In this document: piece by piece, positions 6,134-38,431 of the stretch
How positions within the stretch are numbered: the first letter of the stretch is position 1
Layout: each line of letters begins with the position of its first letter
The notes under the pieces: model-generated
The model's database searches: none
What the model was told of the DNA's origin: nothing
What the model saw: only the letters and a program-made list of their open reading frames with translations
Program-made: the position numbers and the translations under genes
IMG/VR virus record: IMGVR_UViG_3300017958_000024
Span: 1 to 38,506 of that record
From: a virus
Reading direction: 5' to 3' (one strand)
DNA: 38,506 nt

Positions 6134-6144
6134 TTAATATTTCT

Positions 6145-6153
6145 GATAAATAC
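6145..6153 (+). promoter_or_regulatory. T4-type late promoter (GATAAATAC)
   Basis: The same 9-mer as at 687. It is followed by a 112-base leader (6154-6265) that holds a GGTTAACC palindrome near 6193 and a GGAG ribosome site before the ATG at 6266. It probably drives 6266 through 14752, since no further late-promoter core precedes the genes at 9599, 9940 or 10334. Confidence 0.6.
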
Positions 6154-6265
6154 TATTAATGCAGCGTACGACCAATGCCTGCAGGGTCAAACTGTGGTTA
6201 ACCAGCAAAGAGCGCAAGCTGAGAATTTGGTTAGAGGGACAGGATCCCCGTGTTGAGGAGAAGAG

Positions 6266-6487
6266 ATGGCTATTGGTCGAATTAGTGGTCCGCTCTTAAA
6301 AGCTAACCTTCTGAGGGAAGGGGTTGATCTAGCTTTTGAGAACGACCTTTTATACTTAGATGTTAATAATGCCAGAGTTGGTATCAACAATGCTACGCCT
6401 CAACATGATTTAGACGTAAGTGGCACAACAAAAACAACTAATCTTAAGTTACAACAGAAGCAGACATTGCCCAAATTAATTTTTTAG
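6266..6487 (+). CDS. N-terminal part of beta-helix fibre, frameshifted
   Basis: A 73-residue frame. Its first ~60 residues (MAIGRISGPLLKANLLREGVDL..., LYLDVNNARVGINNATP) match the N-terminus of the fibre at 3554 (GRIGGGVLKDNLLRQGVDL..., IHLDVNNSKIGFN). After TTNLK at about 6448 the likeness stops and the frame runs into a TAG. The homologous continuation is in the -1 frame (see 6448-9594). Adding one G at 6448 (AAG-GTT in place of AAG-TT) would restore a single fibre of 1109 residues. The start is well supported by GAGGAG upstream and by homology. The likely explanation is a one-base deletion, either an assembly error or a real mutation. No clear -1 slippery heptamer is visible. Confidence 0.75.
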   Translation: MAIGRISGPLLKANLLREGVDLAFENDLLYLDVNNARVGINNATPQHDLDVSGTTKTTNLKLQQKQTLPKLIF

Positions 6488-9400
6488 GCAATAACATTTC
6501 TACAACTGCAAACACACTTATATTAGGTACAAATGATAATGTTGTCTACCAAAATAGACTAACTGTTGATAGTTTTGATATACAAAACAATATTATAAGC
6601 ACTAATACTACAAACGCAAATATTGAACTTGCACCAAATGGTACAGGAACTGTAGAAATATTTGCTGACACAAATGTTACTGGTAATATACATGCAACCG
6701 GAGATATTACAGCTGATGGTAATATTACTATTGGTGATGCAAACACAGACAATGTTACGTTTAATGCAGAAATTGCTAGTGATATTATTCCAGATGCAGA
6801 TAATACTTATGATTTAGGTAGTGATCCAAATCTTGGAGGTAAGGCTTGGGCAGAAGTATGGACTAATTCATTATATGCCGACTCTATTACAACAACTAAC
6901 ATTACAGCAGGAGGAGTTGATCTTTCTTTAAGACAGGGTAACATATGGTATGTTGCAGAAAATGGGCAAGATACATACACCGGTGATCATCCAAATGATC
7001 CTTATGCAACTGTTAGACAAGCATTAACTTCTGCAACAGCAGGAGATACTATACACATTTATCCAGGCGTGTATACAGAAATCTTTCCATTAACTGTTCC
7101 AGCAGGAGTAACAATCAAAGGACATAGTTTAAGAAGTGTCAAAATTATTCCAACAACATTAACAAATACAAACAGTGCATTTTTATTAAATGGCGAAGTT
7201 ACCATTGAAGATCTAACTATTGCAGATTTTTATGCACCAGGATATGCATTTGAATTTGCAAACGGGTACACTGTAACATCTCGTTCACCGTACGTAAGAA
7301 ACGTATCAGTAATTACACAAGGCTCAGTTACAAGTGGTGCAGATCCAAGAGGTTTTGATGAAGGCGATGCTGGCGGTGGCGCATACTTAGACGGCAGTGT
7401 AGCAAACTCTGCATCAAGAGAAGCAGGTTGCTTATTCCACTCTGTAACTTTTATTACTCCAGGAGTAGATGCTTTAACAATTACAAACGGTACTAGAGTA
7501 GAGTGGTTAAATTGCTTTACATATTTTGCCAACAGAGGATTGTACGCAGTTGACGGAGCAACAGGACTAAAAGGTACAGGTAAAACATCAGTTCGCGTAG
7601 ATAGTGTAACAGGTACGTATCTTGCAGGAGAAACATTTACATATTATGATACAGACGGTGTAACAGTACTTGCTACAGGAACTATTGACAGTGTAGATAC
7701 AGACGGAAAATTTTATGTTTCTGGAAACTTAACTGGGCTAGAAACAGCAGGTGAAAGAGGCGGAAAAACTGCCACAGCAGTTGACAATGCACAGTTAAAC
7801 ACAACAATTAAAAAGTTTGGAACTGCTAGTTTAGCATTAGACGGTACAGGTGATTATGTTTCTTTAACATCGCAAGATGATTTTGGATTTGAAACAGGAG
7901 ATTTTACTGTAGAAGGATGGTTCTATCCTACAAATACCGGAAATGCAAGAGTATTGTTTGACTTTAGAGCTGCCGCAGCAAATGATGATGCAGTTCTTAT
8001 TGGTATAGATGTTAACGATTATGTTTATTTTCAAACAAGTGGCGCAATTGAAATACAAGGCGCAACAGCAGTAACACAAAATGCATGGAATCACATAGCA
8101 TTAGTAAGAAACAGCGGCACAACAACATTGTATCTTGGAGGTGTAAGCCAAGGAACATATGCAGATACAGTAAACTACGGTGTAGCTAAACCTCTTGTAA
8201 TTGGTAACACATACGGAGTTACTGATGGATTTACAGGATACGTTGACGAAGTAAGAATTTCGAAAGATATTGCTAGATACACAGCGGGCTTTGTAACACC
8301 AACATCAGAATTTACTAGTGATTTAGACACAGTATTATTATTACATTTTAATGGTACAAACACTTCAACTACTTTTGTAGATGATACTTTAAATTCACAA
8401 GACATACAGTTTAGTGGAGGTGCAACAGCTAACTATGTTACACTAGCTAACACTACAGACTTTGGTGGCGAAGTTCGTTCTATTGCCAGTGCTTGTGTAT
8501 ATGGTAACTATGGTGTTGTAGGTGACGGACCGGGCGTACTAATGTATTTGATGAGTCAAAACTTAGCATATGTAGGTACAGGTAAATTATCAGATAACGA
8601 CGAAACAAATGTAATACAAGCAAACGAAGTTGTAGAACTTAATGATGCAAAAGTTAGATATAGTTCAGTTGACCATAAAGGTGATTTTAGAGTAGGCGAT
8701 TTATTTTATATTAATCAAGCAACTGGTACTGTAGACTTTACAAGTTCTGAATTTAATATTGATACTACTAGTGGTATTACTATCAATACAGGCGGAAATA
8801 CAACTACTATTACTGGTGATAAAATTGACACAGGAAATCTACGTATTAGTGGAAATACTATCGAAAGTTTAAGTGGAGATATTAACTTAGATGCAGACAG
8901 CGGTACTGTTAGAATAGATTCTACTAGTGCATTACAACTACCAAAAGGCAGCACAGCAAGTCGTCCTACACCAGCAACTGGTATGATTCGTTACAACACA
9001 GATACTAGTTTGTTTGAAGGATATGATGGTAACTGGACTGCACTAAACGGCGTATACGATTTAGATTTGGATACTAAAATAACTGCTGAATTAACACCTG
9101 GTGCAAACGACAGTACCATTCGTTTTTATGTAAATAACAATGTAATAACTACAATTGATGCAAATAAATTAGAGACACCAAGAGTTGAAGTTGACGACAT
9201 TTCGATAGATGGAAACACTATAACAACAGAAACTTTAAACACTGATTTAATTCTATCTGCAAACGGTACTGGCGAAGTTGTTATAGATGATCTTGCTTTT
9301 AAAGATTCTACTATTACAAACAGAGCAGTTGACGGTGTAATGAACTTTACACAAACCGGTTTTGGATATGTTAAGATTGCAGGCACAAACGGCTTTGTTG

Positions 9401-20301: not shown

Positions 20302-20619
20302 ATGTCGGGTAAATTAGGAGCATTAAATTTAGCAGCAAATATAGATACTGTTGTGTATACTGCGCCATCGAGTACCTTTGCTGTTACGACAATTAACGTT
20401 GTTAACAGAAGTGGAAGTACAGTTACAATAAGAGTTGCTGTCAGTGATGCAGATACACCAACAGCAGCAGAATATATAGAATACGATGTAGGCATAGGAC
20501 CAAAAGGGGTTCTTGAAAGAACTGGAGTGGTTGTAGGAGCCGATCAACGTGTAGTAGTAAGATCAAGTGCTACAGACGTTAATGCAGTCGTTTATGGAAT
20601 AACAACAAGTACAGCGTAA
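20302..20619 (+). CDS. Small beta-rich virion protein
   Basis: A 105-residue protein. It has an N-terminal MSGKLGALNLAANIDTVVYT, then FAVTTINVVNRSGSTVTIRVAVS, AEYIEYDVGIGPKGVLERTG and VVVGADQRVVVRSS. This is the layout of a single beta-sandwich and is familiar from marine T4-like phages as a conserved structural protein. It resembles the protein at 9599 in length and style. The ribosome site GGAG lies 12 bases before the ATG. It is placed between a giant fibre and the glycine-rich adhesin, so a fibre-tip connector or cap is plausible. Confidence 0.8.
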   Translation: MSGKLGALNLAANIDTVVYTAPSSTFAVTTINVVNRSGSTVTIRVAVSDADTPTAAEYIEYDVGIGPKGVLERTGVVVGADQRVVVRSSATDVNAVVYGITTSTA

Positions 20620-20629
20620 GGATTTAATT

Positions 20630-22132
20630 ATGGGAAGATTTATATCAGGTTCAGGCAGCGGTAGCACAGAAGCTAGTTTTGCACGTGCCGAAGTTTACAC
20701 TACACCAGGAACTACATCCTGGACTGTTCCTGCAGGAATTAGTAAAGCTAAAGTATTTGTAATTGGCGCAGGTAGTAATTATAGAACAACAGAGTTTTGT
20801 TTTGAAAGTACTGCTTGTTGCTCAGGCGTTGCAGTTCCAGGATCAGATTATTGTATTAATATGGTAGGACACTTAACTGGTGCCGGAGGCGGCTATGCAG
20901 AAAAAACTCTTACAGATATTGCACCAGGGCAATCAATGACGATTAATGTTGGTTCAAGCGGAGGTTTAACAGCAAGTAGTATTAGCATCGGAAGTACAAC
21001 AGTAACAGCAAACAATGCAACAGAAACAGCAGTTTCTTGGAACTGTGTAGGTAATGCAATAGCTAGAGATGATTCAAACGATAACCCGGTAAGTTTAGGA
21101 TTTGATCTTCCTGTATGTGGATATAGAAACTGTATTAACGGTTATTTTAACTCAGGCGGTACAGCAACTGGCGGCGATATTAATAGAGACGGCGGTGACG
21201 GCGTATTCATTCCTTACTTTAGAGAAGATGCAACAATAGATGGATCATTAGTAGCAAATGGTTCCGGCGGAGCAGGCGGCGGTCTTGAAGGTTGTACTTG
21301 TACAAATACATATTATTCAGGTTATGACTATAATTTTGGTGGAACAAGATATAATTGTGTTTGCACTATTGGTTATTTAAAACCAAATAATAGTACACTA
21401 AACGGCGGAACATGTGGATGTTGTTTCTACTGGGGCGGCGAAACAAACTTTCCTTGCTTGTGTCTAGTTACATATCATAACGTATTCGGCGGACAATGTT
21501 ATTACAACATGCCGTGGTCAAACTGTATTTGCCAAAGAATGTGTAATAATGTATACCTTTGTTCAAATAGCGGAGGAGGCGGCGGCGCCGCTGGTGTAAC
21601 ACAGTTTGCTAAATCAGCTGGCGGTGGCGGCGGCGGACAAATGTATCCGTCAAGTTATGACGATTTTGCTGTTACAAACTGTCCAGTAGGAATAGGTGCA
21701 GAATCAGGTGCTTCGCATTCAAACGGACACAACGGAGTAAGTGATGTACATATTATGGCTCCAGAAGTTACAGCATCATCAGGCACTGGTGAATCGACTA
21801 CTATTGTTTGTTATATAGGATTTAGCCAAGACCATTTCACCTTTATTTACGGAACTAACATAAGTAGTTGGCCTTGTGCTGCAATGGAAAACTTATATGG
21901 CGGTGGCAGTGCATTGTACTATACTCTAGGGTATTCTAAAGATAGCGATTCTTTAAAACCGTCGCATACTAGTGTAATTCCGTTATCAACACTTAAAGCA
22001 AGAAACGGCGGCAATGTAGTAGATTTTGAATATGGCTATGGAGCAACAAGTAAACAAGCTGCAGGTGCAGGTGGCGGAGGCAATAGATTGTATCCAACAG
22101 GTGGCAGCGGCGCAGTTGTTGTTGTATATTAA
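20630..22132 (+). CDS. Glycine-rich, Cys-rich tail-fibre adhesin
   Basis: A 500-residue protein. The N-terminus (residues ~17-50, VYTTPGTTSWTVPAGISKAK followed by VFVIGAG) is the typical start of glycine-rich phage fibre-tip proteins. Long glycine runs follow: GAGGG, GGAGGG, GGGGG twice and GAGGGG. These recall the glycine-rich motifs of the gp38 adhesins of T2-type phages, in which polyglycine helices carry variable specificity loops. Unusually for a phage tip protein it holds 24 cysteines, concentrated in residues ~220-310 (GCTCTN, NCVC, TCGCC, FPCLC, NCICQRMC). They could bind metal or form disulfides outside the cell. The last residues (GGSGAVVVVY) form the usual closing strand. It follows the small protein at 20302 by ten bases, with AAGGA upstream. 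It is a likely receptor-binding protein. Confidence 0.8.
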   Translation: MGRFISGSGSGSTEASFARAEVYTTPGTTSWTVPAGISKAKVFVIGAGSNYRTTEFCFESTACCSGVAVPGSDYCINMVGHLTGAGGGYAEKTLTDIAPGQSMTINVGSSGGLTASSISIGSTTVTANNATETAVSWNCVGNAIARDDSNDNPVSLGFDLPVCGYRNCINGYFNSGGTATGGDINRDGGDGVFIPYFREDATIDGSLVANGSGGAGGGLEGCTCTNTYYSGYDYNFGGTRYNCVCTIGYLKPNNSTLNGGTCGCCFYWGGETNFPCLCLVTYHNVFGGQCYYNMPWSNCICQRMCNNVYLCSNSGGGGGAAGVTQFAKSAGGGGGGQMYPSSYDDFAVTNCPVGIGAESGASHSNGHNGVSDVHIMAPEVTASSGTGESTTIVCYIGFSQDHFTFIYGTNISSWPCAAMENLYGGGSALYYTLGYSKDSDSLKPSHTSVIPLSTLKARNGGNVVDFEYGYGATSKQAAGAGGGGNRLYPTGGSGAVVVVY

Positions 22133-22145
22133 GGAGTAATTATTA

Positions 22146-22832
22146 ATGTATTTTAGAACAGAAGAAAACGCTTACGGAATTGACATAATAGTTGCTACAG
22201 AAACAGATGCAACATTGGTTAGTAGTAGCGGTAATGTTTGGATAGAATCATCAGATCCAGATTGTGTACCTGGCAATTATTGGCATAACAATACAATTTA
22301 TGTTCCTGGAAGCGATGAGTATAATAATGATATTGCACCGTTAATTAGTGCAGCTAGAGCAGACGCAGACGCAGCGATAGCCGATGCTGAACAAGCAGAA
22401 AGAGATAGAATTGCAGAAGAACAAGCTGCAATGTCTACTGATCTAGAAGGCGATCCTGTTGAAGGAACTGAACTAACACTTGAAGAAAGAAAAGTATTAG
22501 CTAAACGGTATCCTTCACCAACTTATATTCCAATTAGAGAAGACCCTTTAGGTGTACCTGATATAACAGCTGAAAATTTAGCTATATGGGAAGAAAGATT
22601 AGCAGACACTGGTAGACTAATAGCTGGCGTTGAAGGTGATACTGATCCTGACCCACAAATTGTACGTTTTCCAGAACCTATTACGTTCTTAGAAGGAACT
22701 GATATGGAACACACTATAGAATATGTTATATTACCAGATGAAGAAAAAGCTGACTATATTGCACATTTAAGAATAGTCGAAGCAGATCAAGCTTCTTGGG
22801 TAGCACATATGAAATCTGTACTTGGCGTATAA
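22146..22832 (+). CDS. Possible tail-fibre assembly/accessory protein
   Basis: A 228-residue acidic protein that I do not recognise with certainty. Residues 1-75 are beta-rich with two Trp (NVWIESSD..., NYWHNNTIYVPG). Residues ~80-120 form a strong Ala/Glu-rich helix (ARADADAAIADAEQAERDRI). The rest is mixed, ending in a second helix (SWVAHMKSVLG). Its place directly after a fibre adhesin and before the operon terminator is that of tail-fibre assembly chaperones in many phages, and the mix of a helix with a small beta domain would fit. This is inference from position. Ribosome site: AAGGAG, good. Confidence 0.75.
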   Translation: MYFRTEENAYGIDIIVATETDATLVSSSGNVWIESSDPDCVPGNYWHNNTIYVPGSDEYNNDIAPLISAARADADAAIADAEQAERDRIAEEQAAMSTDLEGDPVEGTELTLEERKVLAKRYPSPTYIPIREDPLGVPDITAENLAIWEERLADTGRLIAGVEGDTDPDPQIVRFPEPITFLEGTDMEHTIEYVILPDEEKADYIAHLRIVEADQASWVAHMKSVLGV

Positions 22833-22903: not shown

Positions 22904-23824
22904 ATGAAAAAAGTTTTTGCTATTAATGGCGGAGCCGGAAGAGTACTTTGTGCTATACCAGCACTTTTAAAATATTATAAAAATAATGGTCCTAATTTTT
23001 ACATCTTTACCGAAAGTGGTTTAGATTTTTTTGTAGGTATTCCAGAATTACAAGATTTAACATTTACTCCTGAACACAAAGGTGTTTTTGAAGATTACAT
23101 AAAACCTAACGAATTAATTTCTCCAGAACCGTATAGAGATCATGGTTACTATAATCAAAAAAGGCATTTAATAGAAGCATTTGATTATCTAATAAATGGG
23201 TCCGAGGATCACACTGATTTAGAAAATATAAAAATTGTTTTAAACAAGCAAGAAGAAATTAATGCACTTGATGCTATAGTTAATGCAAAAAAACATCAAG
23301 GTAAAGAAAAAACAATTGTAATACAACCGTTTGGCAGATCAGCTGAGCCTAAACACAATGAAGTAATTGATGTAATGAGTAGATCTTTAACTCTTTCATC
23401 ATACAAAAAAATCATTGACGAATTGCATAAAAAATATAATGTTATTTACATGGGAGAAAATAACGAAGTAGATGATACTACGTTTAAAGTTCAAACAAGT
23501 TTAAGACAATGGGCTGCAATTATCGAAGCGTGTGATTATTTTATTGGATGTGATAGTGTTGGACAACATATGGCAAAAGCCTTTGACAAACCTGGAACTG
23601 TAATCTTAGGAAGTACTTTTGCAGAAAATACTTCTTATAAAGATTATTTTCAAATACTACGAAAACCAAACACTGAAATTAGATATTTTCCGATACGAAT
23701 CGGTGAACGAGGAGTCGATGGCGATATAACTAATAGAGTAAATGACACTTGTATGGATTTTACTGACGATGAAATAAATGATATCATTAAAAAAATTATT
23801 AAAGATATTGAGGATAAAGTATAA
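22904..23824 (+). CDS. GT9-like glycosyltransferase (heptosyltransferase family)
   Basis: A 306-residue enzyme. The GT9 family transfers heptose from ADP-heptose to lipopolysaccharide core, or in related enzymes to autotransporter proteins. Visible are an N-terminal glycine-rich loop (FAINGGAGRVLCAIPALLKY, residues ~5-24), IVIQPFGRSAEPK (~137-149, the start of the second Rossmann domain) and RQWAAIIEACDYFIGCDSVG followed by QHMAKAFDKPGTVILGST (~200-237), the nucleotide-sugar-binding signature of GT9. The length is a little below the usual 320-350. The start codon has no Shine-Dalgarno, because a terminator stem sits immediately upstream. The carbamoyltransferase follows two bases after the stop. 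Together with the heptose genes at 36657-38505, a heptosyltransferase role is likely. The acceptor is unknown. Confidence 0.7.
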   Translation: MKKVFAINGGAGRVLCAIPALLKYYKNNGPNFYIFTESGLDFFVGIPELQDLTFTPEHKGVFEDYIKPNELISPEPYRDHGYYNQKRHLIEAFDYLINGSEDHTDLENIKIVLNKQEEINALDAIVNAKKHQGKEKTIVIQPFGRSAEPKHNEVIDVMSRSLTLSSYKKIIDELHKKYNVIYMGENNEVDDTTFKVQTSLRQWAAIIEACDYFIGCDSVGQHMAKAFDKPGTVILGSTFAENTSYKDYFQILRKPNTEIRYFPIRIGERGVDGDITNRVNDTCMDFTDDEINDIIKKIIKDIEDKV

Positions 23825-23826
23825 CT

Positions 23827-25632
23827 ATGAAAAAAGATATTTGGATTGCTGGAATAACTAGAGGTCATAATGCAGGAGTCTGCCTTTTAAAAAACGGTAA
23901 AGTAATTTTTGCAATCGAAGAAGAGCGGCTAAGCCGACATAAGTATGACGGTACTCCTCTACTTACAATGAATAAAATTAAAGAATATACTGATAAAATA
24001 GATTTCTTAGTAATTGCACATACTACATTAGATACTAAGTCAGTAATAGCAGATTTTTCAGGAGTAGACATATACACAGCATTTGCTTTAAAACTAGGAC
24101 TACTTGATCATAAAAATCAAATATCAGCAACTGAGCATAGTCAAGTTGTAAATCTTGGAAATATTCATCATAAATTACATGCAGCATGTGCATTTTATAG
24201 ATCAGGTTTTGAAGAAGCTGTAGCAGTTGTTATTGACGGAGCAGGCTCCGTCATGTCGTTTCCGGTAAACGAACGTCATGCAGCTAGAGGATGGGAAACA
24301 GAAAGTATTTATAAATGTGAGTATCCTAATGCATTTACAACCTTATATAAGCATGTTGGATGTACAGATCCAATGCCAACTATTCATAAAATGCAAAGCG
24401 GCGAGCAATTTTTTGAAGGATTAGAATCTCAGTTTGAATGTATTTTGAGCGATCATGCCGGAATAGTTAAAACATATGAAGCAGTAACTGAATTCTGTGG
24501 ATTTGATTTTATCGAAGCCGGAAAAACTATGGGACTTTTTCCTTATGGTAAAGAAAATGATGAAATCCCGCCATTGTTTGATAAAAATAGCATGACTGGA
24601 TTATCTAACAGAAATTTCATAAAACCCACATATCCAAATGGCGCATATATAAATCATGCTGATTACAAATACTTTAATAATCACGTAGTTAATGAAGGCG
24701 AAAATCTAACTCATTTAGAAAATAGAAGAGACTTAGCATATGCATTACAAACACAAACGCAAAAAGCATCATTAGATCTTATAAGAAAAGCAGTTAAAGA
24801 TAGTGGGTGTAAAAATGTTGTCTTTTCTGGAGGTTACGGATTAAATTGTGTTGCAAATTATTATTACTTAGAACAACTAAAAGATGAAGGAATTAACTTT
24901 TATGTTGAGCCAATTAGTAATGATGCAGGAACTGCAATTGGTGCAGCTATATTAGTTTACAAAGATGTATCTGAACACGAAACAGTTGATCATTCAACAG
25001 ACGGATTATATCTTGGTTTTGAATATGATTATTCAAACGAAGAGATTATTAAAACAGCAGAAAAATATAATGCAGAAGTTTCAGATGCTACAAACGAAGA
25101 CATTATTGATTTAATCACTTCAAAAAATATTGTTGCTTGTTTTCAAGGACGTTCAGAAGCAGGTCCTCGAGCATTAGGTAATAGAAGTATACTATATGAT
25201 CCAACTGATCCTAACGGTAAAGATCATGTTAATAAAGTAAAGCGTAGAGAGTATTTTAGACCATTTGCAGGATCTATTTTACAGGATGACGTACACGATT
25301 GGTTTGATTTACGAGGAATGGATGACACTCCATATATGATGTATGCTGTAAATTGTAAAGAAGGAGTTAAAGAAAAAATTCCTTCAATTATTCACGTAGA
25401 TGGTACTTGTCGTATACAAACAGTAACAAAAGAATCTAATCCTAATTATTATAATTTAATTAAAACATTTAAAGATCGTACAGGTGTTCCGATTATTTTT
25501 AATACTAGTTTTAACTTAGGCGGTGAACCATTAGTAGAAACATTAGACGATGCTATTAGAACATTAGCTAATAGCGAAATTGAATATCTATACCTACCTG
25601 AGTATAATAAATTAATTACGTTTAAAAACTAA
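23827..25632 (+). CDS. NodU/CmcH-type O-carbamoyltransferase
   Basis: A 601-residue carbamoyltransferase. Members of this family make carbamoyl-adenylate from carbamoyl phosphate and ATP, then carbamoylate a hydroxyl group on a sugar or antibiotic. The N-terminal Kae1-like domain shows GITRGHNAGVCLL (~9-21), EEERLSRHK (~31-39), the metal-binding HHKLH (114-118) and DGAGS near 137. The C-terminal domain shows GRSEAGPRALGNRSIL (~441-456), EYFRPFAGSIL and GVPIIFNTSFNLGGEP, all hallmarks of the family. The length is normal. It is translationally close to the GT9 gene. In Pseudomonas, a carbamoyltransferase of this class (WapO) modifies LPS core heptose, so pairing with GT9 and heptose genes points to carbamoyl-heptose. 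The stop overlaps the convergent gene by four bases. Confidence 0.85.
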   Translation: MKKDIWIAGITRGHNAGVCLLKNGKVIFAIEEERLSRHKYDGTPLLTMNKIKEYTDKIDFLVIAHTTLDTKSVIADFSGVDIYTAFALKLGLLDHKNQISATEHSQVVNLGNIHHKLHAACAFYRSGFEEAVAVVIDGAGSVMSFPVNERHAARGWETESIYKCEYPNAFTTLYKHVGCTDPMPTIHKMQSGEQFFEGLESQFECILSDHAGIVKTYEAVTEFCGFDFIEAGKTMGLFPYGKENDEIPPLFDKNSMTGLSNRNFIKPTYPNGAYINHADYKYFNNHVVNEGENLTHLENRRDLAYALQTQTQKASLDLIRKAVKDSGCKNVVFSGGYGLNCVANYYYLEQLKDEGINFYVEPISNDAGTAIGAAILVYKDVSEHETVDHSTDGLYLGFEYDYSNEEIIKTAEKYNAEVSDATNEDIIDLITSKNIVACFQGRSEAGPRALGNRSILYDPTDPNGKDHVNKVKRREYFRPFAGSILQDDVHDWFDLRGMDDTPYMMYAVNCKEGVKEKIPSIIHVDGTCRIQTVTKESNPNYYNLIKTFKDRTGVPIIFNTSFNLGGEPLVETLDDAIRTLANSEIEYLYLPEYNKLITFKN

Positions 25633-26225
25633 CCTGTAACATTAGTAAAGGTGCGTTGAGGATAACTTACCGCACCAGTTCCTTCGACATTACCTACGAC
25701 TATAATACGTTCGTTATCGCTGTTGTGAGTTGGGACTTCGTGTGCAAGCCATCCAGGAAAAATTATACCAGTACCAGGAGTTGGCTTGTATTGTATGCCA
25801 GGTTTATTAGGAAAGTTTAATGAAGCTGCTTCTTCGTCAGCTTTAACGTAATAAACCCAACTATAAAGTGCAGGAACATGTGCATGAAGCTCACTATAAT
25901 CTCCTCGCTTATAGATAGCACCCCAACATGTTGTCATAAAAGTTTTTAACTCAAGGTCTGTTTTTTCTCGATGCCAGTCTTGTATAACTTTCTCAACGTG
26001 ATCACAAATGTACTTAAATGGTTTATATTCGGTCATTAACCAACTAGTCATATGGGCCTTAACATTAGTTTCTTTTTTTCTAACGTCTCCAACATCTCTA
26101 ATTATTTGTTCAACTTCAGAATGTAAATCTTGTACTTTATATTCGTCATTATCTTCTAAAGTAAATTCCCACATATGTATTGGAACTTCTAACCATAATA
26201 ATGTTTCTTTAAAGCCTTTGTCCAT
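25629..26225 (-). CDS. Phage-type 2OG-Fe(II) oxygenase
   Basis: A 198-residue member of the putative 2-oxoglutarate/Fe(II) oxygenase group common in marine phages. These enzymes use oxygen and 2-oxoglutarate to hydroxylate proteins or other targets. The iron site reads SELHAHVPALYSWVYYVK (H114, H116), with a distal H162 in IIFPGWLAHEVP and an arginine (R173) in NERIIVVGNV that would bind 2-oxoglutarate. The core is FPN...GTGIIFPG as in family members. The N-terminal ~90 residues are variable. It is the last gene of a four-gene operon on the minus strand, nine bases behind the second oxygenase (26234), with AGGA upstream. The substrate is unknown; phage fibres or host proteins are both possible. 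Confidence 0.8.
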   Translation of the reverse strand: MDKGFKETLLWLEVPIHMWEFTLEDNDEYKVQDLHSEVEQIIRDVGDVRKKETNVKAHMTSWLMTEYKPFKYICDHVEKVIQDWHREKTDLELKTFMTTCWGAIYKRGDYSELHAHVPALYSWVYYVKADEEAASLNFPNKPGIQYKPTPGTGIIFPGWLAHEVPTHNSDNERIIVVGNVEGTGAVSYPQRTFTNVTG

Positions 26226-26233
26226 TAATTTTC

Positions 26234-26806
26234 CTAAATATTAAATGTAAACGATTTTCTTGGGTTATCGTTTTCTTTTTGATAAACTTCGTGTTCTAAC
26301 CAGTGATCCCATATAAGTATTGATCCTTCCTGAGGATAAACTGGAATAACCGGAATAGTTTGATATCTAGTAGGCTCAAAATTTGTAAACGGTCTTGGAT
26401 CATGAAATACTAATGGAGGTACATCATCTCCTATTTCTAAATATATTATGCCACTAAACATACAATCTCTGTGTGCATGTTTTCTCAAATATGCGCCTTT
26501 GTGCATATCACTAAAAAATCCAAAAGGAGATAAATCTTCCTCAAAATAAGGCTGTCTTCTAGCAGTCAATAATTCTTTTATTGATTGTTTAATAATATCA
26601 AATGTTTTAATAACTGTTGGATGAGAATTAACTTCATCTTTTAAATTAGTTTCTGCATGAAGTGTGCTTTTAAAATTTTTAATATTTAAAAGAGTCTCGT
26701 CTGTTTGATTAACATAAAAATTACATAGATCTAATAATTCTAAACGAAGATTTTCTTCAATAATATTTCTATAAATGATAGTTGGAAAGAGTTGTTCATA
26801 TGCCAT
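26234..26806 (-). CDS. Second phage-type 2OG-Fe(II) oxygenase
   Basis: A 190-residue paralogue of the gene at 25629. The N-terminus YEQLFPTIIYRNII is the usual start of this phage oxygenase group (a target-facing 'FPt-i-y' strand). The iron site is YLRKHAHRDCMFSGIIYLE (H110, H112), followed by LVFHDPRPF, then GSILIWDHWLEHEVYQ (H172) and RKSFTFNI (R183). All expected ligands are present, so it should be active. The two enzymes differ widely outside these motifs, which suggests different substrates or an old duplication. The ribosome site is weak (TAGGT), and the gene starts seven bases after the stop of the upstream gene. Confidence 0.82.
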   Translation of the reverse strand: MAYEQLFPTIIYRNIIEENLRLELLDLCNFYVNQTDETLLNIKNFKSTLHAETNLKDEVNSHPTVIKTFDIIKQSIKELLTARRQPYFEEDLSPFGFFSDMHKGAYLRKHAHRDCMFSGIIYLEIGDDVPPLVFHDPRPFTNFEPTRYQTIPVIPVYPQEGSILIWDHWLEHEVYQKENDNPRKSFTFNI

Positions 26807-26813
26807 TTGATAC

Positions 26814-27533
26814 CTACATTAAGTTATTTTTTATTTCATTTAATATATTTTTCTTCATTTTAGATTGAATAAAGATGTCATATAATTTTGATAACTGACG
26901 TTGTCGCCAATAAGATTTTAATCGAACACAGCTCATTGACATATCAAATAGTTTATCAGATAAATTAAACTTTTTTAGTTCAATTTTTTCATCTGTATTA
27001 AATTTAACGTATAATAAAGGGTCGCCTTGTGAAACTTTAAATTCGTTACATCCTTCTTTCATTTGAAACGCATATTCAAGCGGCCTAAACCATTTACTAA
27101 TATTAAATGATCCTGGAACATAAAATCCATAGTTAGTTACAGAAGTTTCATGCATGTAAGGGTGCATAGACTCAATAAACAAATCATCTTCACTAAAAAA
27201 TATCCAGTTTGCTGCTAGTCTAACTGTTCGTGCATTTAATAACGAAGGAGATTTATATATAAATGTTTTTTGGTTAAAAGGAATATGTTCAGACATATTA
27301 TTCCTAATACGATCATCTAAAAATGTTAAATCAACATTAGTAGGACTAGTAAACATAAATGTATTTTTAGACACGTTTACAAAAGCCGGACAGTTTAAAA
27401 AATTATCCATTTTATTTTCTTTGTTAATTTTTTTACTTAGGTCATGAAAAACATTTACAGGATCACTGTATGCTAAAAACATTTCAGTGTACATGTCTTT
27501 GAAGTCCCACGGTGCCCAATAAACTGTCTTCAT
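26814..27533 (-). CDS. Unknown phage protein, paralogue of the gene at 27530
   Basis: A 239-residue protein of unknown function. It begins MKTVYWAPWDF and has an N-terminal half with NCPAFVNVSKNTFMF. The second half (YVPGSFNISKWFRPLEYAF, then VSQGDPLLYVKFNTDEKIELKK) lines up with the gene at 27530 (ISPGVTSFKWQHATNIHLN, LKHGMPLVSLFPLTERNVDLK), so the two are diverged copies of one family. The layout (W-x-x-P, G-x-PL) reminds me of the DUF6065 group, but I cannot confirm it. The start overlaps the upstream stop by four bases (ATGA). Lysines and asparagines are frequent, with low GC. The operon also holds two oxygenases, so these proteins could be substrates, partners or capping factors. Confidence 0.75.
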   Translation of the reverse strand: MKTVYWAPWDFKDMYTEMFLAYSDPVNVFHDLSKKINKENKMDNFLNCPAFVNVSKNTFMFTSPTNVDLTFLDDRIRNNMSEHIPFNQKTFIYKSPSLLNARTVRLAANWIFFSEDDLFIESMHPYMHETSVTNYGFYVPGSFNISKWFRPLEYAFQMKEGCNEFKVSQGDPLLYVKFNTDEKIELKKFNLSDKLFDMSMSCVRLKSYWRQRQLSKLYDIFIQSKMKKNILNEIKNNLM

Positions 27534-28255
27534 TTTTTATATCCGGCCTGTTTAAAATATTTTCCGACTGGTACTCTAGGAAAATGTTCTCCTATTTCGC
27601 CCCATGTATTATAATCTACTTTTTTACATTTTAAATCTACATTTCTTTCCGTCAAAGGAAATAATGATACAAGAGGCATACCGTGTTTTAATGTTATAAC
27701 ATATGGTTCGTCTTTAACAGGACAATTTAAATGTATGTTAGTAGCATGTTGCCACTTAAAACTAGTAACACCGGGAGATATCCAGATACCCTTTTCTCTA
27801 AAATAGCTTGTACTATAATGAGATTCAGTAAACACATAATAAATGTCATCCGTTGATACCAACTTCCAAGGATTTGACAATTTTAAAGCTATGCGCTTTC
27901 CGGGATACATCCCCCTCCATTGATCTTCGTGGTGTTGAGAAATTTCAGTTCCTAGTTCTGGTCTAGATTGACATGTACTACTCCAAGATCCGTCGGGATT
28001 AATTCTAATATCAACTTCTGCCCACATGTTAAGATGTATTGGCTTTGAAAGAAATTCTCTTACGCCTGGACATACTGCTACTGTACCTACCTTATCAAAA
28101 AGGCCAATTCTTTCATTCCATGTTTTAATAGCAGTTTGCATATTTTTTAAAAAAGAAGGCTTAGGTAATTTGTCTCCATAGTTTAACTGACAGTTGTTAT
28201 AAACACTTAAATCATGTGTGTATGCTGTTAATTTTATTGGTTTTTTAAAAAACAT
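27530..28255 (-). CDS. Unknown phage protein, first gene of minus operon
   Basis: A 241-residue protein of unknown function. The N-terminus KLTAYTHDLSVYNNCQ resembles a beta strand pair. VGTVAVCPGVREFLSKPIHLNMWAEVDIRI (residues ~58-87) is the most conserved-looking block. The C-terminal ~90 residues match the downstream paralogue at 26814. No catalytic pattern is evident. The ribosome site CGGAGATCTG is good. It is first in the operon, facing away from the structural gene at 28328. The 72-base gap holds TATAAGTA on the minus strand, a possible weak late-promoter variant. Confidence 0.75.
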   Translation of the reverse strand: MFFKKPIKLTAYTHDLSVYNNCQLNYGDKLPKPSFLKNMQTAIKTWNERIGLFDKVGTVAVCPGVREFLSKPIHLNMWAEVDIRINPDGSWSSTCQSRPELGTEISQHHEDQWRGMYPGKRIALKLSNPWKLVSTDDIYYVFTESHYSTSYFREKGIWISPGVTSFKWQHATNIHLNCPVKDEPYVITLKHGMPLVSLFPLTERNVDLKCKKVDYNTWGEIGEHFPRVPVGKYFKQAGYKK

Positions 28256-35600: not shown

Positions 35601-36660
35601 ACGACTAGCACCTAGTGTTTCAAATGCTGTTATTGGAGACTTAGGCGAACGTGAACTACTAAATCGTGCGCAGTTGCTACTACAAGGACTTGAAGTTACA
35701 TCAGATGGTTACGATGGTTCAAATAATCCAATTAATGGTGGTATTGTTGTTGAAGGTATTCTTAACCCGCAAAACTATCCTCTCAATCCAAGTGACGTTG
35801 GTTGGTCGGGACTTAGTTCACTAGCACAAGGTGGACAGCCTAGCTTTGCTCAAGTTGCCGCAGGTGGTTCTGTTGTATGGAGTACAGGGCAAGCTGCTGT
35901 AACTGCAACTGCTACTGCAATTCCAACTACAAATGTAGATTTAACAGTGTATGATAGATATGTTTACTACGGCAATGAAATTAGAATATCAAAAAGTCAG
36001 TATGCATCTACTGGTCCAGTAGCTATAGGTTCTCATGTTTCAGTTACTAATACCGCCGGAGGCTTTGGCACAACTAATTCTATATATGCCACAGTAATAA
36101 GCGTTGAAGAACGAAAAGATTACTATAGAATTAGAACAAGTACTACGTACAGCGGATATATTCGAGAAGGCGGCACTGTTAGATTTACTGTAGGCGAAAC
36201 ATTAACAAACAGAAACTATGGTGAATTTACTGCTACTAGTGTAGATGCAGCAGGAGTTACTAATGGTACTTCAGTAACAAGCGGAGGTTCTGTTTCATTC
36301 CCAGCTGGTACACTTGTTTCAAATCTTGCAACATACACACACGGTAGTTTAAGTTATTATAGAATTACATTTAACAACACCTATAGTGGAACACTTACAC
36401 AAGGCTCAGGCACAGTAGGATTTGAATTTGTACAACCTCCGTATGCACAGCCTGGAGAAACTATTTTCTCATTCGTTGCTGTTCCTGGAGAGCGTTCTCA
36501 AATTGACTTCTCAGAATTGAAAGAGTTAACTAATACGCCATTAGGTGGTAGAGGTACATTCCCAAATGGTCCTGATGTTCTTGCAATTAACATATACAAA
36601 CCAACAGGTTCATCAACTACTGGTAACTTAGTTCTTAAATGGGGTGAAGCACAAGCCTAA
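29686..36660 (+). CDS. 2324-residue giant fibre/baseplate appendage protein
   Basis: The largest gene in the window. N-terminal (~1-400): three helical modules centred on KC-x-RD (Cys at residues 54, 190 and 348; for example KCKRDIGYIIDGLAYDI), also found in the fibre at 14794. Middle (~850-1290): five tandem repeats with the pattern ND-x-I-x-V-x-G-x-x-LGG-x-x-x-TNDL. Around 1400, FFVHRPFDGGVQLG and RQSKKYIRYQSGKGIMYTTG start a block that I recall from marine myovirus fibres. Near 1570, GDVNQSGSFTIDDITEVQNY resembles a dockerin/EF-hand calcium loop. Around 1800, DYMLRGSDGNFVFCHRMRNS is another recurrent fibre block. The C-terminus lacks an adhesin-type glycine-rich end. No Shine-Dalgarno is evident; coupling to 28756 is likely. 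Probable role: long host-contact fibre or baseplate appendage. Confidence 0.85.
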   Translation: MAKTLVKNYVFKPGMSRTGNLYPNAYSLLEQNKQFIQSETTAYIAQEVIDAVKCKRDIGYIIDGLAYDIALGTNYNAIFLGLTEVNSLDLSETVFRTFTRTQTAIDALSAVSGDATATTRSQTFWTELVNISRNGRDVASPLNLPNPTNATQERIDAKNRILNNITFLQAEINAWMDNNYPNHNHDVDKCSRDVKYALWAAAYDIIYTGNSASYDSAKFFNYYSAQGNTGITAEHQAQTVAAYRRLQNIIDEIVRGQSITPSSGNTETQNLTGGTVTATIGTAAANLIDIVADVVENGTGALPTKVAPSTGWASSELQAARVSIVNAKNSIIDDVTWDENYTYNQAKCERDVGYVIDAYLNDLRYDGNYKLYNTVKYYWDNGVAQVDGNRLPEIDTHAFIGELIDDYILTNTAYSALGAVSQVIDTTKTAETAAATKLQTLVNQTIAVITNGISAFGTIEENTVGYVKIQGKYDLNELLLITNVTTNDILFNFSDIDAGGLGEIHDYGADEDFVSYLQTTDGTTKIYLTFDTSSHSETDSIQIFVEKTENGKSQVIVRPYDFGTDAIERHRMAAPLSMLDADFEYGLQPTKWSAIGMMRGYPSIYEIPGTDTEVLSVTTDASTGTNGVGASLITVTTVGAHSFSVGTPITIKALETSVSGSARAEGSFVIINVPDNKSFQFYAKSKVGTTSGEELAAGYTQLREGGFYTGAGIEGAEFTVVSNGSAGTMVTQLQVPSGSNTVPFDGNAPEIGSPLTNALIPTGSQVTNVISNSAGGGEYLTLNIGTNASAGDTSLTLFDATGVEENLALDRGDGQAVFIDTVIGSTINLSGQLQQNVVSNSRTYANVTANIIQPSGVGLILTINRSGGSYTIGSIQLAGLGFEVNDQIRVNGSDLGGVDVTNDFIGTVSGVNANGGVTSITPSGTAVNGTATYTGVVSQPQFGNGIDARFDVTVTNGAYTAATPPAADISQGFVVNDRIIIPGNQLGGVAGTNDLTVKVTGIEPGPNSEPGNIATVTVEGGTPADVDEIYPLVPYTTNSVSGGGAVIDVRRVGTVYSVIVTNGGTNFAINDTITVLGTDLGGASPTNDLDINVDNIGASGEITATSVTGIAVNSGSYDAADGNVVVGSGALFDVAMAGGVYTVTLNAGGLNYYPDQELKIRGNILQGTTPTNDITITINSINATGTIQTFTATGTASNGTESYVDVEPINVNKDGSGATFDISRTGGTYTDIGDIDTGSNYEIGDKLKILGSDLDGATPEHDIIIEVTGVDPSNSNALTTFTTSFDGAEPGTQIPLYSTFTMTENTTAIIPVNDTITFSALATLEAVFPNAHGLVPGDTFIVATRSDTGTNNHNLADGAFLALSVPTTSSLRYNARAAGTISTATEDISGTIYARPDSFFVHRPFDGGVQLGTGGPQHGAQAIRQSKKYIRYQSGKGIMYTTGALFAPSYDLRSVTADGTEVGSVITVTTDDNDHGVQAGGIIRLLGIETPGYNSGKGNSTPPWFDYAVSEVIDERTFRIQAQRRLGDTTELVLTPTPSTCPFIVAMQEAQAGDNTNDFHAFFQETAQDGYVWGDVNQSGSFTIDDITEVQNYLNSGNGSSQAITDRIALMFAEAKSRRNTGAIEDIVGAYIQEADIGFGSQMSVVNWHGATVRSGIFDDQNGIFWEFDGTNISVVQRTGTQQIAGTIAIDSDSNLVTGTNTRFRDQLTAGDRIIIRGMTHVVTHVDSQSTMTVAPDFRGVNNISGAKINLVVDKKVKQEDFNLDTLDGNGPSGYDIDIAKMQMIGIQFSWYGAGFIDYMLRGSDGNFVFCHRMRNSNINTEAFMRSGNLPVRYEVTNEGPPGKLAVGIDNSQTTLELVDGSFFPTYGTIYVDNEIMRFTGRSGNTLTGLSRGSSLTNFQAGAERTYFAGAASPHTAKTGVILISSTITPLISHWGSAFLTDGGFDEDRGYIFSYNEPNIEITQTRQTAFMIRLAPSVSNAVIGDLGERELLNRAQLLLQGLEVTSDGYDGSNNPINGGIVVEGILNPQNYPLNPSDVGWSGLSSLAQGGQPSFAQVAAGGSVVWSTGQAAVTATATAIPTTNVDLTVYDRYVYYGNEIRISKSQYASTGPVAIGSHVSVTNTAGGFGTTNSIYATVISVEERKDYYRIRTSTTYSGYIREGGTVRFTVGETLTNRNYGEFTATSVDAAGVTNGTSVTSGGSVSFPAGTLVSNLATYTHGSLSYYRITFNNTYSGTLTQGSGTVGFEFVQPPYAQPGETIFSFVAVPGERSQIDFSELKELTNTPLGGRGTFPNGPDVLAINIYKPTGSSTTGNLVLKWGEAQA
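32242..33540 (+). repeat. Five tandem ~90-residue repeats in giant fibre
   Basis: Copies start near 32242, 32512, 32806, 33067 and 33331, a spacing of about 260-295 bases. Each has G-x-x-x-x-(F/I)-D/T-x-x-x-x-G-x-Y ... ND-x-(I/L)-x-(V/I)-x-G-x-x-LGG-x-x-x-x-ND ... V-x-x-I/V. Good examples are NDTITVLGTDLGGASPTNDL and NDQIRVNGSDLGGVDVTNDF. DNA identity between copies looks low. Confidence 0.7.
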
Positions 36661-36671
36661 AGGGCTTGTGC
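36649..36671. terminator. Hairpin across convergent stop codons
   Basis: GCACAAGCC (36649-36657) pairs perfectly with GGCTTGTGC (36663-36671) around TAAAG. The plus-strand stop (36658-36660) and the minus-strand stop (36657-36659) both lie in or at the edge of this hairpin. There is no T-tract on either side, so it may act as a bidirectional 3'-end block rather than a classical terminator. Confidence 0.5.
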
Positions 36672-37247
36672 AAACTGCCAAAGATTGTCATATATCTTTG
36701 TACGTTTAGCAATCTTTTGATTAGTAAACTTTTTTAAAAGTTGCTCTGTCTCAACTCCGTGTCCAGTTCTAACTAAAATAGGCTTTGCACCTATTTTGTA
36801 AGCAGCTTTCAAATCTGATAGTTTGTCACCTACATAAAATCCAGATGAAAATTTAATACCGGGTATTTCGTTTTCTGCACGTTCAAACATTCCTGTATTA
36901 GGTTTTGCATATAAATCGTGCCGCAAGCTCGATGAACTATAATATAATCCTTCTATACTAGGACATCCTGCTTGTCCTAGTAATTCCATTAAACGTTGAT
37001 TTACAGAATTTACTTGTTGTTCTGTAAGAACACCTTTTTGTATACCGCCTTGATTGGTAATAATTACAATCTTATGTCCTTTAGATCGTATGAGTGCAAC
37101 TGCTTCTAAACTTTTTTCAATTGGTAATAAGTCTTTAGGATCAGTAACATATGTACCTAAATCTTGATTAAGTACACCATCTCTGTCTAATCCAACCACA
37201 CATTTATTATACGTTTGATTGAGAGACTGTGCCTTGAATCTGCCCAT
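36657..37247 (-). CDS. gmhB: GmhB-like heptose-bisphosphate phosphatase (HAD)
   Basis: A 196-residue HAD phosphatase. GmhB removes the 7-phosphate of D-glycero-D-manno-heptose 1,7-bisphosphate, the step before nucleotidyl transfer. Motif I is GLDRDGVLNQD (D21, D23), motif II is IITNQGG (T64), the lysine is in AKPNTGMFERA (K115) and motif IV is VGDKLSDLKAA (D141, D145). GDKLSD and VRTGHG match E. coli GmhB closely. The zinc-binding cysteines of classical GmhB, normally between GIYYC and KPHPGM, are missing; here the loop reads YYSSSSLRHDLYAKP. The longer frame would begin at 37277, but the ATG at 37247 is chosen because AAGGAAG precedes it and HAD homologues start here. It overlaps the cupin gene by 41 bases. 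It is the last gene of the heptose cluster. Confidence 0.8.
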   Translation of the reverse strand: MGRFKAQSLNQTYNKCVVGLDRDGVLNQDLGTYVTDPKDLLPIEKSLEAVALIRSKGHKIVIITNQGGIQKGVLTEQQVNSVNQRLMELLGQAGCPSIEGLYYSSSSLRHDLYAKPNTGMFERAENEIPGIKFSSGFYVGDKLSDLKAAYKIGAKPILVRTGHGVETEQLLKKFTNQKIAKRTKIYDNLWQFAQAL

Positions 37248-37623
37248 TATCTTCCTTTTGACTATCACCAGGAGCAATTCGATAATTATCTTCTACACTG
37301 TCTGGTGTACTTACTTCAGTAATACTAGAATTACCTACAATTGCAATTAGTTGATGAGGTTGTAATGGAGGATTATGCCAAGTGTCTCCTTCTTTTAATT
37401 CTCTCTCATTAAATTTTGCAGTTTCTGTATCAATCCATCTAACAAGAAAACGTCCGGTGTTTACAAACCATGTTTCGTCTTTTTCTCTGTGAAAGTGCAT
37501 ACTAAACTTAGCGCCTGCCTTTTCGAAGACTAAAAGTTTACCACAATACTTTTCAGTAGTAGCCCAGATAATTTCGTATCCCCAGCCTTTTTTAACTAAA
37601 CCTTGTAACCTAGTTGGCTCCAT
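37207..37623 (-). CDS. Cupin-domain sugar-isomerase-like protein
   Basis: A 138-residue single-domain cupin. The N-terminal KKGWGYEIIWATTEKYCGKLLVF is typical of cupins in sugar-nucleotide clusters and of the C-terminal domain of type II mannose-6-phosphate isomerases. The metal site is MHFHREKDETW (H43, H45, E50), completed by H90 in PPLQPHQL. The last ~20 residues are Gln/Ser/Asp-rich and probably disordered. It starts inside the end of the epimerase gene (14-base overlap) and overlaps the phosphatase gene at its other end, so the four minus genes form one tightly packed operon. The reaction is unknown. Sugar-phosphate isomerisation or epimerisation in the heptose pathway is an inference. 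Confidence 0.75.
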   Translation of the reverse strand: MEPTRLQGLVKKGWGYEIIWATTEKYCGKLLVFEKAGAKFSMHFHREKDETWFVNTGRFLVRWIDTETAKFNERELKEGDTWHNPPLQPHQLIAIVGNSSITEVSTPDSVEDNYRIAPGDSQKEDNGQIQGTVSQSNV

Positions 37624-38431
37624 CTATATAATCCTCTATTTTAATCCAATCCATATCTATAGTAGAATTTAGTTTTTCAAGATTAGCACATGTGTATTCT
37701 TGATATTGTCCTTTTAAATTTTCAGGAATTTCAATAATGTTTATTGCTGCGCCGTATTTTTTACTAATAGAATTAGCAACAGTATCAAAACTTACTGCTC
37801 TACCTGTACCTACATTCCAAATACCTGATTCATCAATGCCTAACATTTTTTCATGTACTTTAGCTACATCATCTACACAAACAAAATCTCTCAAATATCT
37901 ATCGCTATCTCTAAATAGTTCAATAACGCCTTGTTTTTGCGCTTGTTTTGTAAACTTAGTTACTGGAGATGCTTGATCACCTTTGTGTTCTTCGCCTTGT
38001 CCGTAAACATTAAAATATCTAAATCCTTGTATCAAAATATTAAATTCATCTTTAGTTTGGTTAACAAATCTATCAAACAAATATTTGCTCCAAGCATACG
38101 GAGATTTAGGCAATAGTGGGCCACTTTCTGTAAAATGTGTTGTAGGACCATATACACTTGCACTAGATGCATATTGAAAATTTACACCAAAATGCGCACA
38201 TGCTTGTACAAGTCTAAGACTAAATTCAAAGTTTTGTTCTAATACTTTTTCAACATCTGTTTCTGTAGTGGAGGTTATTGCACCTAAATGTATTACCCAA
38301 TCATACCCGTCAGGATCGGGTATAGCATTAGGCATGTAATCCCATCCTTCTACTTCATGTCCTTGTGATTGCAAATATTGTGCAACATTTGCACCTATAA
38401 ATCCTTTATATCCTGTAACTAATATTCTCAT
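37610..38431 (-). CDS. hldD: ADP-glyceromanno-heptose 6-epimerase
   Basis: A 273-residue short-chain epimerase of the HldD/RfaD type. HldD converts ADP-D-glycero-D-manno-heptose to the L-glycero form, the donor for LPS inner core. Visible are the NAD(P)-binding TGYKGFIG (6-13), YASSASVYG (87-95), catalytic YAWSK (Y112, K116), GFRYFNVYG (136-144), EHKGDQAS (148-155, containing the second catalytic lysine of HldD), RYLRDFVCVDDVAKV (~178-192), SGIWNVGTGRAVSF and LKGQYQEYT. These last segments follow the E. coli enzyme almost position by position. It is ~35 residues shorter than E. coli HldD, mainly because of a deletion after the first Rossmann strands. Start: ATG overlapping the upstream stop (ATGA), with AGAAGAG upstream. 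It is probably a functional enzyme rather than a remnant, since every active-site residue is kept. Confidence 0.88.
   Translation of the reverse strand: MRILVTGYKGFIGANVAQYLQSQGHEVEGWDYMPNAIPDPDGYDWVIHLGAITSTTETDVEKVLEQNFEFSLRLVQACAHFGVNFQYASSASVYGPTTHFTESGPLLPKSPYAWSKYLFDRFVNQTKDEFNILIQGFRYFNVYGQGEEHKGDQASPVTKFTKQAQKQGVIELFRDSDRYLRDFVCVDDVAKVHEKMLGIDESGIWNVGTGRAVSFDTVANSISKKYGAAINIIEIPENLKGQYQEYTCANLEKLNSTIDMDWIKIEDYIDGAN

Follow-up and report, generated by a model that had tools for sequence, protein, structure and literature searches.

We analyzed a viral contig of 38,506 nucleotides (38.5 kb; IMG/VR record IMGVR_UViG_3300017958_000024), which in its whole length is called the window here. 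It stems from a cyanophage-like marine phage of the T4 type and is part of the tail-fibre cluster. Two bases apart, it carries open reading frames (ORFs) for a glycosyltransferase family 9 (GT9)-like protein, GT9L, and for a NodU/TobZ-type O-carbamoyltransferase, as an initial annotation of the sequence had correctly pointed out. We found that GT9L is firmly linked to its partner genes and to Cys-rich adhesins, i.e., fibre-tip proteins encoded just upstream. On balance, we favour the view that the phage encodes a kit which decorates its own adhesin with a rare seven-carbon sugar of the heptose type, probably on Cys, and then carbamoylates this sugar. The link between a GT9-type enzyme and Cys-rich phage adhesins points to chemically modified phage adhesins of a new kind.

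GT9L occurs together with Cys-rich fibre-tip proteins

Clustering of neighbouring genes revealed Cys-rich virion-type proteins just 5′ of GT9L, in many cases two or three paralogues in tandem, whose Cys content of 8–12% compares with a median of 0.8% in the background. They are members of the Gly_rich_2 (PF21722) tip family, in some cases with weak matches. In S-SSM7, the Cys-rich proteins are SSSM7_114 to 116. A nearby protein with at least 5% Cys was present in 47 of the 54 GT9L loci that had at least 3 kb of upstream sequence. Since this first set of loci had been picked by GT9L itself, we assembled a control set of 80 loci picked by an unrelated marker, a 105-amino-acid fibre-cluster gene, i.e., independently of GT9L. 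Both GT9L and a Cys-rich protein were present in 41 of these loci and neither in 27, nine had only the Cys-rich protein and three only GT9L (Fisher p = 1.6e-10). All nine contigs with only the Cys-rich protein stop less than 1.5 kb past its gene, at the place where GT9L is expected, and the three with only GT9L contain a protein with 4.8–5.0% Cys. Within a subset of 44 non-redundant control loci with sufficient downstream sequence, all 30 loci with GT9L encoded a protein whose Cys content was 4.5% or more vs one of 14 without it, the exception being the truncated contig L112 (Fisher p = 2.7e-10); the 4.5% threshold was chosen after the first table had been seen, and the original 5% gives 28/30 vs 1/14. 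The Cys-rich tip proteins of the 30 loci with GT9L contain 4.8–12.3% Cys.

The Cys-rich adhesin and GT9L have been swapped repeatedly as a cassette. Flanking genes are nearly unchanged while the slot differs, e.g., in L104 compared with L120 and L143, and the marker-gene tree calls for no fewer than nine changes between presence and absence of GT9L, with four forced by supported branches; the Cys state also changes nine times. We compared the composition of the adhesin slot between 33 loci with and 16 without GT9L, using strict GT9L labels and excluding truncated contigs. Cys amounted to 6.2% with GT9L vs 0.9% without (0.6% when L112 was left out; p = 8e-8), i.e., it was 7–11 times higher, while Ser fell from 9.7% to 7.7% and Thr from 9.9% to 7.6% in the presence of GT9L; every residue other than Cys changed at most 1.6-fold. 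Homologues with the adhesin fold from loci without GT9L were Cys-poor (23 of 23 below 4%), and no Cys-poor adhesin homologue was found in the loci with GT9L. Beside the carbamoyltransferase of cyanophage S-SSM5, which lacks GT9L, we looked for a Cys-rich protein and found none; Cys therefore tracks GT9L and not the carbamoyltransferase. The initial annotation had placed Ser/Thr/Asn-rich fibres next door to the enzyme pair. This description suits the large fibres, but among the sizeable virion-type genes upstream the closest one encodes the Cys-rich Gly_rich_2 protein, which it had not mentioned.

Phages of Vibrio and Aeromonas carry distant GT9L relatives (25–30% identity), whose neighbours support this association. 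In the Vibrio schitoviruses, GT9L lies next to another kind of tail protein, which has 39–41 Cys and in D505 and K479 reaches a density of 6–9 Cys per 100 residues. The neighbour of GT9L in Aeromonas phage HJ05 is a weakly Gly_rich_2-like protein, 4.1% of whose residues are Cys. The Cys-dense tail proteins beside distant GT9Ls are of two different folds. A homologue of the Vibrio tail protein from a locus without GT9L has mostly polar residues at the Cys positions, as expected for sites that are probably exposed. No carbamoyltransferase or heptose genes were recognised or annotated beside GT9L in these distant loci; the hosts of these phages make ADP-heptose themselves.

GT9L is linked to carbamoyltransferase and heptose-pathway genes

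A scan of IMG/VR with an alignment of the GT9L family gave at least 584 relatives. We pooled the 80 best of them with the window and named phages and reduced the pool at 90% identity to 66 non-redundant loci. The carbamoyltransferase gene lay immediately 3′ of GT9L in 61 of the 66 loci, nearly always at most 20 bp away. At least one heptose-pathway gene was present within 16 kb of GT9L in 47 loci, at least three of HldE-C, HldE-N, cupin and HldD in 20, and a GmhB-like homologue near GT9L in 35. The co-occurrence of GT9, carbamoyltransferase and heptose genes in related phages, which the initial annotation had named as a check of its proposal, was hence borne out. HldD and HldE-C were found in all large-genome named cyanophages with GT9L, i.e., S-SSM7, S-SSM6a, Sf-FS3, S-CAM1, S-CAM3, P-SSM2 and P-SSM5. 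As gene order and strand differ among lineages, the linkage looks functional and not merely inherited.

Only three heptose-type genes, GmhB-, cupin- and HldD-like, are visible in the window before the contig ends 75 bp past their block (36657–38431). By best family match, the HldD- and GmhB-like genes agree with the ADP-heptose genes noted at first. In relatives, an HldE-type adenylyltransferase, an HldE-type kinase, a HAD phosphatase and an HldD-type epimerase were recognised in the same way. The cupin was linked to heptose genes in 22 of the 66 GT9L loci and also in phages S-SM2 and P-TIM68, and its metal-site residues H43, H45, E50 and H90 were invariant in 30 sequences. A fold search with the cupin was unspecific, with sugar isomerases among many matches, and one may speculate that it fills the GmhA sugar-phosphate isomerase step. 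Cyanophage genes annotated as phosphoheptose isomerase (L001 27459–27794, L002 20903–21247, L003 20771–21091, L004 17762–18085) match a HAD phosphatase family and have an EcbF/BcbF-type look; the copies in S-SSM7 and Sf-FS3 match TIGR01689.

GT9L adopts a predicted GT-B fold of the GT9 type

The nearest named relatives of the GT9L gene are from Kyanoviridae and marine single-cell phage contigs. GT9L reached 300.7 bits against phrog_8954, a family of unknown function, and 21.1 bits against PF01075 (GT9), slightly under the cut-off of 22; among its orthologues only that of S-CAM1 exceeded this cut-off (22.6 bits). A PDB search with the single GT9L sequence gave no match, and a profile search gave marginal matches only, to WaaF/WaaC. 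An AlphaFold2 model was calculated from 55 related sequences, i.e., the window and IMG/VR rows only, with a predicted local distance difference test score of 94.2 and a predicted template modelling score of 0.92. When we compared it with the PDB using Foldseek, the top 30 matches were all GT9 enzymes, with Veillonella GT9 (3tov), TibC with ADP-D,D-heptose, WaaC and WaaF at the top. The model hence confirmed a predicted GT-B fold of the GT9 type, and fold and gene linkage together are consistent with GT9L using ADP-heptose on a protein. Several cyanophage GT9Ls (L001 18740–19987, L003 16839–17978, L008 19992–21146) carry a Pro/Gln/Lys-rich C-terminal tail of 70–110 residues that is absent from the window GT9L; in some of them this tail contains two closely spaced Cys.

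The neighbouring ORF is clearly a NodU/TobZ-type carbamoyltransferase as judged from its sequence, as both Pfam domains and the residues of the catalytic and metal sites are present. H14, H114, H118, D137, D366 and the motif GPRALGNRS are conserved across 61 sequences. The enzyme resembles O-carbamoyltransferases with solved structures in the PDB, e.g., TobZ and GdmN, and its family phrog_1601 is annotated as Nol-like carbamoyltransferase.

A proposed modification of the phage adhesin

We propose the following steps in this order. HldE-, GmhB- and HldD-type enzymes would build an ADP-heptose-type donor, from which GT9L would move the sugar onto the product of the Cys-rich fibre-tip gene a short way upstream, with Cys sulphur as the most likely acceptor. 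The NodU/TobZ-type enzyme would then carbamoylate a hydroxyl of the transferred sugar to give carbamoyl-heptose as the presumable product. Many exposed thiols would thus be capped and the receptor-binding surface altered. Capping would make sense, since a thiol-rich tip might otherwise cross-link in oxygenated water. It is likely that the adhesin is the substrate of GT9L and that the donor is of heptose type, and fairly probable that the transferred sugar is carbamoylated by the adjacent enzyme; for Cys as acceptor, arguments are evenly balanced. Only tentatively do we suggest an undescribed protein modification, in which a GT9-derived enzyme with Arg for the catalytic Asp puts heptose or carbamoyl-heptose on many adhesin Cys, its gain permitting Cys-rich tips.

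Several observations weigh against this proposal. The catalytic base Asp-110 is essential in TibC (PMC4358343) and has its counterpart in D13 of WaaC, a position taken by an invariant Arg (R13) in 65 sequences of the GT9L family. This correspondence rests on the gap-free N-terminal motif, in which GRVLCAIPAL of GT9L and GDVLHTLPAL of WaaC match position by position, as the profile–profile alignment with WaaC/WaaF covered the C-terminal donor side only. GT9L, which has Arg at the position of the catalytic Asp, is therefore not an orthodox heptosyltransferase and may catalyze a different reaction. The initial idea of a GT9 heptosyltransferase is thus retained for the fold, which is nearest to GT9 heptosyltransferases including TibC, but not for the catalytic residue. 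Replacement of the general base by Arg would be compatible with a thiolate acceptor, which should need less base catalysis. As to the sugar pathway, the HldD- and GmhB-type genes score below curated family cut-offs, as do most of the pathway genes in relatives, and GmhA is absent, as none of seven whole phage genomes gave a match to TIGR00441. No heptose genes were found near GT9L in 19 of the 66 loci, in part owing to short contigs. Moreover, S-SM2 and P-TIM68 have heptose genes within large polysaccharide clusters and lack GT9L; the sugar pathway therefore has more than one use. In these two phages (L092, L093), the heptose-type genes lie beside transketolase-like and other sugar genes. Finally, the marker-gene tree offers four phylogenetically independent pairs on supported branches (GT9L and Cys change together in three, are opposed in none and show no difference in one), too few for significance alone.

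The alternative that survives best, although unlikely, is that GT9L glycosylates the adhesin in the manner of TibC on Ser, Thr or another residue, and that Cys, needed for disulphides or metal binding, is a structural correlate. TibC modifies Ser of beta-helix adhesins (PMC4358343) and is among the folds closest to GT9L, and Ser and Thr still account for about 8% of the adhesin residues each. However, of all residues Cys shifts the most with GT9L, with a drop in Ser and Thr, and Cys takes the place of polar, probably exposed residues in the Vibrio tail protein. Furthermore, half of the cyanophage Cys-rich adhesins have an odd number of Cys and only 27% of the Cys are in well-conserved columns, a sequence pattern unlike that of a fixed network of disulphides. 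We hence keep Cys as the preferred acceptor. The initial annotation had left the choice between host lipopolysaccharide (LPS) and phage fibres; the fibre is now favoured, but as a Cys-rich, Gly-rich tip and not as a Ser/Thr-rich large fibre.

That the target of the kit is host LPS or a different surface glycan, to which it would add carbamoyl-heptose like the WapO-type enzymes of Pseudomonas, e.g., to block superinfection, is improbable. GT9 enzymes classically act on the LPS core, heptose genes of this kind have been termed LPS genes in cyanophages (PMC3037559), and those of S-SM2 and P-TIM68 lie in polysaccharide clusters as described above. Yet GT9L is a gene of the fibre cluster, and its presence follows that of Cys-rich adhesins nearly without exception, even where heptose genes are lacking. 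No hldE-C match was found in Synechococcus WH7803, the host of S-CAM1, and 101 genomes from its family gave above-cut-off matches to hldE-C in two cases, to hldD in two and to gmhA in none. Cyanobacterial LPS has been reported to contain neither heptose nor Kdo (3-deoxy-D-manno-oct-2-ulosonic acid) (PMC4515613). Hosts that mostly lack a heptose pathway and an LPS without heptose and Kdo argue against a simple role in the LPS core, and the WapO-like function considered at first has thus become less likely. Least probable of all is a carbamoyltransferase that works separately, e.g., on bases of the phage DNA or some other metabolite, with only GT9L tied to the adhesin: cyanophages such as S-SSM5 carry the enzyme without GT9L and distant GT9L loci lack it, but it is the next gene after GT9L in nearly all of the 66 loci, usually within the short distance given above.

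Further genes of the window

The features of the window are compiled in Table 1. Its fibre genes match phage baseplate or tail-fibre families, and one baseplate/fibre gene has a broken frame (6134–7068): an 841-amino-acid ORF starting at 7069 aligns to phrog_13163 only from position 289, and the missing N-terminal part can be read upstream in two other frames, which may reflect a sequencing error or a real break. Downstream of the enzyme pair, the minus strand (25629–28255) encodes two 2-oxoglutarate- and iron(II)-dependent (2OG-Fe(II)) oxygenases and two uncharacterised proteins (phrog_17480, phrog_7084). The oxygenases are retained in the closest relatives L012–L015, and oxygenases of this type occur near GT9L in 17 of the 66 non-redundant loci. 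They may belong to the module, and it is conceivable that they hydroxylate fibre residues. Two contigs from metagenome-assembled genomes (L259, L204), labelled Euryarchaeota TMED129 and Gammaproteobacteria CPC44, carry psbA 89–91% identical to the cyanophage syn9 gene and are probably misbinned phage or cyanobacterial DNA.

Table 1. Genes of the window discussed in the text, with coordinates, strand and family matches (aa, amino acids).
Feature	Position	Strand	Remarks
105-aa fibre-cluster protein	20302–20619	+	marker for the control set (alignments, control scan)
Cys-rich Gly_rich_2-type fibre-tip protein	20630–22132	+	500 aa, 24 Cys (4.8%); weak PF21722 match; proposed acceptor
228-aa protein between adhesin and GT9L	22146–22832	+	no Pfam or PHROG matches; possibly an assembly protein
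GT9L (phrog_8954 family, GT-B of GT9 type)	22904–23824	+	306 aa; proposed adhesin (heptosyl)transferase
NodU/TobZ-type O-carbamoyltransferase	23827–25632	+	601 aa; PF16861 (207 bits), PF02543, phrog_1601 (572 bits)
Two 2OG-Fe(II) oxygenases	25629–26225, 26234–26806	−	PF13759, phrog_81
GmhB-like HAD phosphatase	36657–37277	−	PRK08942 heptose-bisphosphate phosphatase, 121.7 bits (cut-off 178)
Small cupin with conserved metal site	37207–37623	−	speculative stand-in for the missing GmhA
HldD-like, ADP-heptose 6-epimerase relative	37610–38431	−	TIGR02197, 235.4 bits (cut-off 274.6), best family match

Relation to known systems

If our proposal is correct, chemical modification of receptor-binding proteins joins the known ways in which phages vary their adhesins, and GT9L might be an enzyme that links heptose to Cys and is useful for glycoprotein chemistry. 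It also provides a testable function for the cyanophage gene clusters T4-GC 302 (GT9L) and 303 (carbamoyltransferase) and for the so-called LPS gene clusters. Sullivan et al. (2010) listed the carbamoyltransferase as T4-GC 303, described the co-occurring LPS genes T4-GC 304, 305, 307 and 308, and left open whether these are functional LPS genes or stuffer DNA (PMC3037559). The same heptose-type genes are meant, in P-SSM2, S-SM2 and S-SSM7, but they were not tied there to T4-GC 302, T4-GC 303 or Cys-rich adhesins. For a mycobacteriophage, capsid glycosylation has been suggested from its glycosyltransferase genes (PMC11256854). Our literature search, with preprints and most subscription papers outside its coverage, found no report on Cys-rich cyanophage fibres, on GT9-modified phage fibres or on a connection of GT9-type enzymes with Cys-rich adhesins of phages.

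Enzymatic glycosylation of Cys sulphur is known from glycocins, e.g., pallidocin with its S-linked glucose (PMC6405829). The glycocin S-glycosyltransferases share Cys S-glycosylation with the activity proposed for GT9L but act on specific Cys of small peptides and use another donor. They belong to a different enzyme family than GT9L. WapO is the LPS carbamoyltransferase of Pseudomonas and acts on O-7 of the LPS heptose. The carbamoyltransferase of the window has the two domains of NodU, TobZ and GdmN as well as their catalytic and metal residues; unlike these and WapO, it is paired with GT9L in phage fibre clusters. With WaaC and WaaF, GT9L shares the fold, the C-terminal donor-side motif D-x(4)-H-x-A-x-A and the N-terminal GxG-x-V-L-x(4)-P-A-L, but it differs by its invariant Arg for D13 and is linked to phage fibres instead of LPS core genes.

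A further close parallel is found in the bacterial autotransporter heptosyltransferases (BAHT; TibC, AAH). Protein heptosylation is known for both TibC and AAH, and TibC attaches the sugar to Ser of autotransporter adhesins (PMC4358343). Like these, GT9L has a GT-B fold of the GT9 type, a likely protein adhesin substrate encoded beside the enzyme and a likely heptose donor. Unlike these, it has no N-terminal beta-barrel, as the Rossmann strand begins at residue 3 of the model, and Arg takes the place of the Asp-110 counterpart. The BAHT iron finger of four Cys is likewise missing, with no such Cys set in the window GT9L or among the invariant columns of the family. Finally, instead of a Ser-modified beta-helix autotransporter, the phage system comprises a Cys-rich Gly_rich_2 tip and a carbamoyltransferase as partner.

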